The notes below the pieces were generated by a model, which was not told the origin of the DNA, searched no databases, and saw only the letters and a program-made list of their open reading frames with translations. Of a stretch of 64,000 bases of DNA, positions 21,987 to 37,471 are shown piece by piece. Position 1 is the stretch's first letter. Every line of letters begins with the position of its first letter. Made by a program: the position numbers and the translations under genes. The stretch comes from Parafrankia discariae (GTDB taxonomy: Bacteria > Actinomycetota > Actinomycetes > Frankiales > Frankiaceae), in contig NZ_KB891230.1 of assembly GCF_000373365.1 (NCBI RefSeq), forward strand, positions 279,975-343,974, read 5' to 3'.

Positions 21987-23011
21987 GTGAGGACTCCGGA
22001 GACACAGACGGGCGGGATGCCGGCTGGACGCCGGCCGTGGCTGGGACCTCGGTGACGGGACCGGAACCCGGGCGACCGATCGACAGGAGCCCTCAGCCTG
22101 AGGAGACCCGCCACCGGAGCCCACGTCCGTGAGGTCAGGCCCGTGAGATCAGGCCCAGCACGAAGCCGGGCCCACGAGCCGACCGCCGCCGTGGTTCGCC
22201 CTAGCCTACACACGATGCCACCAACGCCGGCTCCGTCCGGACCACAGGCCACGACGAGGTGACCGGACGGACACCGCGAGGGCACCCCGGTCCGGGTGTC
22301 CCGGTGTGACTGTTACGGTCGAGTCCGCTGCCCACAGCTCAGTCCGTGAACCGTCTGCCGCCCCTCCGAGCCCACGGGCTCCGTGGGTGGACTCGTGGGT
22401 GGACTCCGTGGGTGGACTCCACACCGGACCACACGGGCAGGAGCACCATCACCGACCGGTCTCCCCGGCGCACCTCGTAGGCCGGCCCCCCTGGCGCACC
22501 TCATAGAGTGGTCCGCTCAGTGGTCCGCGTGGCTGTCATCCACTTTGTGGGCCGGTCGCCGACGCCACGCCGGATGCGGTGTCATGTCCATGCACAGGTT
22601 GTGGACGACGATGTGGAGAACCGCTTCCGGAGGAGCGGCGCGCCGCCGGCCGCGCCCGGCGGGTCCGGTGCGCTCGGGCCGGGGGTCCACGTCCATCGGC
22701 CGCGGCGACACGGAACAATCCTCGGCTACACAACAGTCGCGCATCCTGTCACCATCACCCCCTTAACCACCAGGAACGTCTCGACCACCAGCGCACGAAC
22801 CACCGAACCAGGACCTGAGCCACCGGCGGCACCGGCTGGTCGGCACCGCACCGGCGGCCGACCGGGCGGCACCGCCGGTCGGCGATGTCGCCGGCCCGAC
22901 ACAGCTGACGCGCATTGACGCAAAGAGACCACAGTGCCAGCCAGCGACTCCGGCTCCCGGCGGTCGTGTGGTCCCGCCCGAGAGCCACGAAGAGCCACAA
23001 GGAGCACCCCT
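21987..23011. other. rpmH-dnaA divergent intergenic region
   Basis: 1 kb of regulatory DNA between divergent rpmH and dnaA. It contains the 12-bp tandem repeats at 22383-22419, a duplicated GTGGTCCGC near 22508-22531, and imperfect DnaA-box matches such as TGTGGACGA near 22600. No convincing promoter hexamers were found. Compared with the dnaA-dnaN spacer the DnaA boxes are few and poor, so I do not place oriC here. Confidence 0.5.
22383..22419 (+). repeat. three tandem copies of GTGGGTGGACTC upstream of dnaA
   Basis: Copies at 22383-22394, 22395-22406 and 22408-22419 are identical. The spacing is one helical turn or slightly more. They may bind a regulator of dnaA or rpmH. Confidence 0.8.
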
Positions 23012-24607
23012 GTGACCGACCTCAGCGCCGACTCCGTCGCCGGTCAGCCGTCCCGGGGAGCCGCGCCCACCTCGGAGCCGGACCTGTCGGCGGTGTGGGA
23101 ACAGGCAGTGGCGGGCGTCGCGGACGGCACGCTCTCCGGCCAGCAGCGGGCATGGCTGAGGCTCACCCGTCCACTCGGGCTCGTCCAGGACACCGCGCTG
23201 CTCGCCGCGCCGAACGAGTTCACGAAAGACCTGCTCGACTCCCGGCTGCGCCCGTTCCTCTCCACCGCGCTGTCCACCGCCTACGGCCGGGAGATCCGGG
23301 TCGCGGTCACCGTCGAGCACACGCCGGACCCGGAGCCGATGACCGGTCCCCTCACCCTCCCGGGCATCGACGCCGGCGGCGGCCCACGCTCGCTGCTCTC
23401 GACCGGCCACGAGCCCCGCCTGGGAGAGGACCACCGAGGCGAGGACCGCCGGGAGGACCGCCGGAGCGAAGATCGCCTCGACGGGCGTCTCGAGGGACGG
23501 GTCGACGGAGCGCCCCCCGGGCGGATGGCCCCGGGGCTGGGCCGCGACCCCTCGCCCCGCCCGTCCGAACCGGCCCGGCTCAACCCCCGCTACCTGTTCG
23601 AGACCTTCGTCATCGGTGACAGCAACCGCTTCCCGCACGCGGCGGCCGTGGCGGTCGCGGAGGCTCCGGCGAAGGCCTACAACCCGCTGTTCATCTACGG
23701 TGACTCCGGGTTGGGCAAGACGCACCTACTCCACGCGATCGGTCACTACACGGTCAAGCTCTACCCCGAGAGCAAGATCAAGTATGTGAGCATGGAGGAG
23801 TTCACCAACGACTTCATCGCCTCGATCCGCGACGACCGGCAGCTCGCGTTCCAGCGCCGCTACCGCGACATCGACGTCCTGCTGGTGGACGACATCCAGT
23901 TCCTCGAGAACAAGGAGCGGACGCAGGAGGAGTTCTTCCACACCTTCAACGTCCTGCACGACACCGAGAAGCAGATCGTCATCAGCTCGGACCGCTCACC
24001 CAAGCAGCTCTCGGCCCTCGAGGACCGCCTGCGCAGCCGGTTCGAGTGGGGGCTGATCACCGACGTCACGCCGCCCGACCTCGAGACCCGGATCGCCATC
24101 CTCTCGAAGAAGGCCGCCACCGAGCGGCTGCCGGTCCCTCCGGACGTGCTCGAGTACATCGCCACCCACATCGAGCGCAACATCCGCGAGCTCGAAGGGG
24201 CGCTCATCCGGGTCGCGGCCTTCGCCAGCCTGAACAAGTCCCACGTCGACCGCACGCTCGCCGAGATCGTGCTGCGCGACCTCATCCCCGACGCGGCCAA
24301 CCCGGAGATAACCGCCGCGGCCATCATGAACGCCACCGCGGCGTACTTCGGCATCTCCATGGAAGACCTGTGCGGGACGTCACGCAGCCGGGTCCTGGTG
24401 ACAGCCCGTCAGATCGCGATGTACCTCTGCCGTGAGCTCACCGATCTGTCTCTACCGAAGATCGGTCAGCACTTCGGCGGCCGGGACCACACCACCGTGA
24501 TGCACGCCGACCGGAAGATCCGCGGCCTGATGGCCGAGCGCAGGGCGATCTACAACCAGGTGACCGAGCTGACCAACCGCATCCGCGCCCAGGCCCGACA
24601 CGCCTGA
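23012..24607 (+). CDS. dnaA: Chromosomal replication initiator DnaA
   Basis: 531 residues. Domain I is N-terminal (about 15-95). Domain II is a long charged Arg/Glu/Asp-Gly linker (about 120-190). Domain III is an AAA+ ATPase with Walker [14 protein letters not shown], Walker [12 protein letters not shown] and the Arg finger region SRFEWGL. Domain IV ends with the DnaA-box binding signature [17 protein letters not shown] at 23012 has AAGGAG 7 nt upstream. DnaA-ATP binds the boxes and trio element in the downstream spacer and opens oriC. Confidence 0.98.
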
Positions 24608-25592: not shown

Positions 25593-25613
25593 TGTGGAAA
25601 AGGCTGTGGATAA
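25593..25613 (-). promoter_or_regulatory. DnaA boxes, left cluster
   Basis: TGTGGATAA at 25605-25613 is a perfect box (TTATCCACA on the minus strand). TGTGGAAAA at 25593-25601 differs by one base. The two are 12 bp apart, in the same orientation. Confidence 0.85.
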
Positions 25614-25828
25614 CGGGTGATTCCCGACCTGCGAGGAATCAGTGTTGATCGCCCAGCGCGCTCGGGCGATCGCTCGGATCATCGGACGGGCTTCGAGCGC
25701 ACTCCGAGCGGGCCTCGAAAGGGCGTCGAAGCTGGGGACAGTGGCCTCGTAACCTGTGGGTAGCCGGTGGATGAACGTGTGTACAGCCTGTGTGCATCTG
25801 AGGGTCATCTGTGGAATCGATCAAGCCC

Positions 25829-25855
25829 TGGGGATAAACGCCTTGATCATCCACA
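25829..25855. promoter_or_regulatory. DnaA boxes, middle cluster
   Basis: TGGGGATAA at 25829-25837 (minus-strand box, one mismatch) and TCATCCACA at 25847-25855 (plus-strand box, one mismatch) face each other. Weaker matches occur at 25755-25763 and 25810-25818. Confidence 0.6.
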
Positions 25856-25912
25856 CCGTCACCCCCAGGATGCGCACAGGGACTCACCCACTCTGACCTG
25901 GGAAAATGGCCG

Positions 25913-25930
25913 TTTTCCACAGTTTCCACA
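25913..25930 (+). promoter_or_regulatory. paired DnaA boxes next to the unwinding element
   Basis: TTTTCCACA (25913-25921) is directly followed by GTTTCCACA (25922-25930), both on the plus strand. Four GC bases separate them from the DnaA-trio element, the layout known from the Bacillus subtilis origin. Confidence 0.8.
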
Positions 25931-36720: not shown

Positions 36721-36794
36721 GGACCTATAGCTCAGTCGGTTAGAGCGCTTCCCTGATAAGGAAGAGGCCGGTGGTTCAAGTCCACCTAGGTCCA
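36721..36794 (+). tRNA. tRNA-Ile (anticodon GAT)
   Basis: A 74-nt cloverleaf. Acceptor GGACCTA pairs with TAGGTCC. The anticodon stem-loop CTTCC-CTGATAA-GGAAG gives anticodon GAT, and the T-loop is TTCAAGT. CCA is not encoded. A TACTCT hexamer at 36702-36707 may be its -10 element; the same hexamer precedes the tRNA-Ala gene. Confidence 0.97.
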
Positions 36795-36814
36795 CGAGCT
36801 GGCCCGTCGTGTTC

Positions 36815-36834
36815 GCCGACCTTTGGTCGGCTTT
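36815..36834 (+). terminator. terminator after tRNA-Ile
   Basis: A 7-bp stem GCCGACC / GGTCGGC with a TTT loop, followed by TTT, 20 nt after the tRNA. Confidence 0.7.
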
Positions 36835-37471
36835 CCGGCGGGCCGCGATGTTTTCGGAGGGGCCGAGCCCCCCGAACCCCCCACGTGCGCGATCGCGTTT
36901 CGGGTTGGTGGTGTTCGGGCGAGGCAGGGGGTTCGAGTTCCCTCACCCACGGGCACCGGGCCTGGGGTCTGGGGTCTGGTTTGGGCGGGATTGATCGCGC
37001 CCCGGCCCTGCCACGGGTACTGCTGGATGCCGCGGATCGCTGGGCTCGCCGGGTCTGAGTGTGTGCTTCCGGGCCGTTGTGCTTGCCAGGCGCTGTGCGC
37101 TGTGCACAGGGCTGTGGATAAACCTGTGGATGATGCTGTGGATATCCCTGTTCATTCCGTGCGTTCCGGGACGTATCCAGGCAGGATGTGAGCGAGCGGC
37201 GTGTCGGACAGCCGACCCGGGTCGGGCCGTGCTGGCGGAATCTCAGGAGGTAAACCCTGGCCGGGCCAGTGGTCTGACCCCATCCGGTAGCCGCGTGGGT
37301 GCGCCGAGAGAGGGCCGGGAGCCCTTACATCCGATGCGTCCGGTTTGCCTGATCTGGTAAGACGGGCGAGCGGCAGCGGCGAAGGGGCGGGGCGCCGGGC
37401 GGGTCCATCCCGCCGGTCGCGTACCCCGGATCCGCCTCTCGGATCCCCTGACATTGGGACGAGGAGACAAC
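36835..37471. other. intergenic region carrying a DnaA-box array
   Basis: About 640 bp without a convincing gene. It contains a tRNA T-arm-like fragment at about 36926-36952 and the 12-bp DnaA-box array at 37100-37159 described separately. Confidence 0.5.
37100..37159 (-). promoter_or_regulatory. tandem 12-bp array with three DnaA boxes
   Basis: Five 12-bp units beginning CTGT. The middle three contain TGTGGATAA (37113-37121, perfect), TGTGGATGA (37125-37133) and TGTGGATAT (37137-37145), each exactly 12 bp apart and in the same orientation. The flanking units (CTGTGCACAGGG and CTGTTCATTCCG) are degenerate. The array lies 11 kb from oriC, so it may titrate DnaA or regulate neighbouring genes. 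Confidence 0.75.

Follow-up and report, generated by a model that had tools for sequence, protein, structure and literature searches.

A 12-bp-phased array of DnaA boxes outside oriC in Parafrankia discariae, part of a set of such arrays around the origin

The window, by which we mean the whole stretch of 64,000 nucleotides analyzed here, contains dnaA, dnaN, recF, gyrB, gyrA, a DUF3566 gene and tRNA-Ile, in the gene order that is usual around actinomycete origins. Its GyrA is 93% identical to that of several Frankia species. The dnaA gene (22934..24607, plus strand) specifies a protein whose domain IV possesses the standard box-reading motif, GRDHTTV. The dnaA-dnaN interval was taken as oriC; its DnaA boxes (25593..25921, near 25.6 kb) include a pair in 12-bp register (25593/25605), and another 12-bp pair is located upstream of dnaA on the minus strand (22600..22620). 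In the search of the window for known RNA families only tRNAs were found.

The array which is the subject of this report (37100-37159) is located between tRNA-Ile and a class I methyltransferase gene, about 11.5 kb from the boxes near 25.6 kb, in good agreement with the figure of about 11 kb given in a preliminary description of this DNA. The tRNA-Ile(GAT) gene (36721..36795, plus strand) is followed by a strong hairpin (36801..36845, plus strand; fold -35.2 kcal/mol, z -3.7) with a weak terminator-like match, which is probably a terminator parting tRNA transcription from the array. The methyltransferase gene (Methyltransf_24, Pfam PF13578; 37472..38089, plus strand) is the constant downstream neighbor of the array in the genus: five relatives carry orthologues which are 93-99% identical and have the array upstream, and in the genus genomes the boxes stand at -256 to -288 or at about -359 from the start codon. 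Immediately ahead of this gene is a second island (37329..37471, plus strand), strongly conserved in a six-genome alignment of the genus and presumed to represent this gene's promoter and 5′ UTR.

The array had been described as lying downstream of tRNA-Ile, and in this genome it does. The link appears to be incidental, because the distance between the two ranges from about 0.3 to 1.3 kb among relatives and because in one of them (G017) they are found on different contigs; a functional link between the array and the tRNA gene was ruled out on the same grounds. In G017 (L144, contig C109) an integrase-like element seems to be inserted at tRNA-Ile.

Five contiguous units of 12 bp make up the sequence, beginning at 37100 (CTGTGCACAGGG), 37112 (CTGTGGATAAAC), 37124 (CTGTGGATGATG), 37136 (CTGTGGATATCC) and 37148 (CTGTTCATTCCG). 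Units 2-4 contain the three DnaA boxes, all of them on the minus strand and with starts exactly 12 bp apart. Box 1 (37113..37121; TTATCCACA) is a perfect match to TTRTCCACA, while box 2 (37125..37133; TCATCCACA) and box 3 (37137..37145; ATATCCACA) each exhibit one mismatch, so that the claim of three near-consensus boxes, one perfect, at 12-bp intervals is confirmed by the coordinates 37113, 37125 and 37137. Ahead of the boxes stands a palindromic half-match (CTGTGCACAG) in unit 1 (37100..37111), a degenerate box which reads on either strand. Unit 5 (37148..37159) contains no DnaA box. All five of the units claimed earlier are present here, but the fifth is shared by no genome other than G019, the closest relative of this one, and does not belong to the element.

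The exact array of three TGTGGAT cores occurs once in the 7.9-Mb genome, as judged by pattern search. One of the two sequences TTGTGCACA and TTGTACACA likewise precedes a box by 12 bp upstream of dnaA in Actinoallomurus and Streptomyces loci. The GC content of the array is 52%, compared to 62-78% in the adjoining 50-bp windows; no AT-rich unwinding element lies beside the boxes, and a second replication origin was rejected for this reason.

All six genomes of the genus possess the array, always upstream of the methyltransferase gene and with the spacing kept exactly. An exact pattern search matched five of them, the sixth, G019, having one N inside the array. Conservation in close strains had been proposed as a check on the array, and this is what the six genomes reveal. 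Their alignment shows the array as a sharp island, with up to 18 of 20 columns invariant versus 0-2 of 20 just upstream. Within it, the three TGTGGAT cores account for 21 columns, none of them variable, while variation is seen in six of the nine gap columns and in two of the six columns making up the boxes' weak ends. Box 1 (TTATCCACA) is without variation; box 2 reads TAATCCACA in G017 and box 3 reads ATATCCACA or CTATCCACA in relatives, the core being invariant in both. Unit 1 is conserved as well (11 of 12 columns invariant), although as a palindrome and not as a full box. Invariant cores separated by variable gaps are the pattern expected of DnaA boxes, and not that of coding sequence or of a drifting repeat. 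At this site the array was not found in the other Frankiaceae genera; Frankia and Pseudofrankia relatives have the methyltransferase orthologue without it. Since the gene is kept where the array is absent, the array is genus-specific, and, as the other genera show, the family can do without it.

The array is one of several. A search of the 7.9-Mb genome for same-strand pairs of boxes at 12 bp, allowing up to one mismatch, gave seven pairs (reversed control, no matches), all on the origin contig and within about 40 kb of oriC. They are found in the present array, at oriC, upstream of dnaA, and in two further arrays at -38 and -31 kb. The first of these is a four-box array (contig C129:267222-267263; L139:7222-7263), 12.7 kb before the start of the window, which is embedded in the coding sequence for the C-terminal tail of a PadR regulator and adjoins an inositol-3-phosphate synthase gene; its boxes are near-identical in the six genus genomes, and Frankia relatives have boxes in the same register. 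The other is a multi-box array (contig C129:274735-274789; L139:14735-14789), 5.2 kb before the start of the window, in the sequence encoding the Ser/Thr-rich N terminus of a DUF6049 protein; several other Frankiaceae genera have counterparts of it. In both arrays the boxes persist at the DNA level across genera while the surrounding codons diverge.

Perfect TTRTCCACA sites show a similar concentration: nine of the 36 in the genome are located in 61 kb surrounding oriC, compared to an expectation of 0.28 if they were evenly spread. At -50 kb, an inverted pair of perfect boxes (contig C129:255753-255776), accompanied by a third box at 255898, stands about 160 bp upstream of dnaB, an arrangement which suggests control of the helicase gene by DnaA. 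A search of 35 family genomes for the pair pattern gave 47 matches versus one for the control, and all but one of the matching loci compared by BLAST align to the origin side of their own contig. A match in G015 was considered as a chance Ser/Thr coding repeat; this was rejected, BLAST having revealed it to be that genome's own -31 kb array.

The 12-bp phasing to which the preliminary description drew attention is exact, but it is also ordinary, 12 bp being the commonest same-strand box spacing in the actinomycete loci examined (55 pairs versus 24 at 11 bp in 79 loci around gyrA, which come from related genomes and are not independent). At least one 12-bp pair is present in 66 of 139 genomes of the class, where a control pattern matched only two genomes. 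Strict triples, on the other hand, were found in few genomes (9 of 247), and six of these belong to the present genus, with its -38 kb array. Thus, it is the run of three that stands out, 12-bp phasing as such being normal for DnaA. In the genomes of genus g6 (L176-L180), a 12-bp DnaA-box pair is found within or beside gyrB.

Could such a run have arisen without selection for DnaA binding? In shuffles of the window a triple at 12-bp spacing is expected 0.00 times. Forty simulated 347-kb contigs, generated by an order-3 Markov model with the tetranucleotide make-up of the real contig, contained neither a pair nor a triple, where the real contig has seven pairs and two triples; the earlier judgment that a random origin is very unlikely is upheld by this result. 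Slippage could create 12-bp units, yet a chance or neutral short tandem repeat is hardly credible for a sequence which is conserved in six genomes amid diverged flanks and whose counterparts, absent from the simulations, are placed exclusively near oriC; simulations, shuffles and conservation together exclude it. It is also highly improbable that the repeat has been selected for another regulator or for a small hydrophobic peptide (plus-strand frame LWINLWMMLWIS). The plus frame is locally open, and the repeat preserves part of the peptide pattern as a by-product, but there is no shared start or stop, the open stretches range from 75 to 316 codons, and the changes fall in the gaps between boxes whatever the codon position; moreover, identical 9-mers recur at further origin-proximal sites in other contexts. 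With no conserved start, stop or frame, a small coding gene in this frame was rejected. The extra-origin DnaA-box array proposed in the preliminary description is supported by its presence throughout the genus, by its invariant cores, and by its membership of an origin-centered, 12-bp-phased set, and we are confident, on this evidence from sequence, that it represents a real DnaA-binding element.

The role of such an element is a separate matter. As the array invariably stands 250-360 bp upstream of one gene, it may have a local role in transcription, in which DnaA bound to the array would regulate the methyltransferase gene, or a divergent transcript, and couple transcription to the replication cycle. 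In each of the six genomes the array keeps to its position upstream of the gene, including those in which tRNA-Ile is no longer close by, and in B. subtilis DnaA serves at certain sites as a transcription factor (PMC4447404). We nevertheless consider this unlikely to be its main role, as the presumed promoter island is found further downstream at a varying distance from the array, the orthologous genes of other genera lack the array, and the genes that accompany the arrays around oriC are of more than one kind. A datA- or DARS-like element, altering the nucleotide state of DnaA by hydrolysis or reactivation and so going beyond mere binding, is more doubtful still. Like the array, datA of E. 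coli is a cluster of DnaA boxes outside oriC and near a tRNA gene; it exerts negative control over initiation, uses oligomeric DnaA on closely spaced boxes, and is affected by read-through from a tRNA operon (PMC10950094). Unlike datA, the array shows no recognizable IHF-type partner site, and it is not placed downstream of a tRNA unit with read-through, the strong hairpin intervening and the proximity, which is not conserved, being lost in G017. We know of no sequence-specific IHF consensus for this phylum. The DARS core consists of three boxes which are not all in one orientation, whereas the three boxes of the array all face one way, on the minus strand.

Titration of DnaA or re-initiation control is the best fit among the roles offered in the preliminary description; an influence on transcription of the adjacent gene is possible but less favored. 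We regard sequestration of DnaA, or negative control, as probably the main role of the array, and infer DnaA binding, cooperativity and an effect on initiation as follows. Several DnaA molecules would bind the three head-to-tail boxes, with the 12-bp spacing serving cooperative binding, and the palindromic unit 1 may act as a fourth, weak site. The -31 and -38 kb arrays, the boxes which precede dnaB at -50 kb, and the present array would jointly form a set of origin-proximal DnaA sinks. Because this set lies close to oriC, the sinks would double soon after initiation, free DnaA would fall, and re-initiation would be restrained. With only three boxes, one of them perfect, the capacity of the array by itself would be small. 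Reviews state that in B. subtilis and S. coelicolor untimely initiation is repressed by DnaA-box clusters located near oriC (PMC4585315, PMC5742627, PMC5295017).

From its sequence the array can be classed as a further case of these oriC-proximal clusters, having at least two boxes outside oriC beyond chance, a location near oriC, and conservation among relatives (all six genomes of the genus). The oriC-proximal DnaA-box clusters (DBCs) of B. subtilis (Okumura et al. 2012, as cited in PMC5295017) resemble the Frankiaceae set in that several clusters near oriC presumably act jointly by binding DnaA. The sites are unrelated, however, and two of the Frankiaceae clusters are embedded in protein-coding tails. 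It is conceivable, though we put it forward tentatively, that Frankiaceae carry distributed, co-evolving DnaA-binding arrays around oriC, two of them in Ser/Thr-rich coding tails (PadR and DUF6049) where DnaA binding places a constraint on the codons, and that the present array was gained in one genus, re-tuning its initiator sink. The control of initiation outside E. coli, above all in actinomycetes, is poorly understood, and genera with and without the extra array offer a natural comparison by which one could test directly what number of DnaA sites near the origin sets the initiation threshold. As the coding-embedded arrays suggest, searches limited to intergenic DNA can miss such elements.

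The S. coelicolor clusters outside oriC, as cited in PMC4585315 and PMC5742627, also belong to an actinomycete and comprise several DnaA boxes outside but near oriC, which are reported to repress untimely initiation. The Frankiaceae array differs in being located at another intergenic site. In the Streptomyces loci that we compared, inverted TTATCCACA pairs are located between crgA and the rhomboid gene, at 5-9 kb beyond tRNA-Ile, in contrast to the three same-strand boxes in 12-bp register of the Frankiaceae array. Smulczyk-Krawczyszyn et al. (2006) reportedly described the S. coelicolor clusters outside oriC under the names H69, H24 and D78, and the rhomboid-crgA inverted pairs are probably the H69 cluster. 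Such inverted pairs are seen between these two genes in Streptomyces and Streptacidiphilus (L026:18787-18970, L052:21259-21309 and L044:22195-22393).
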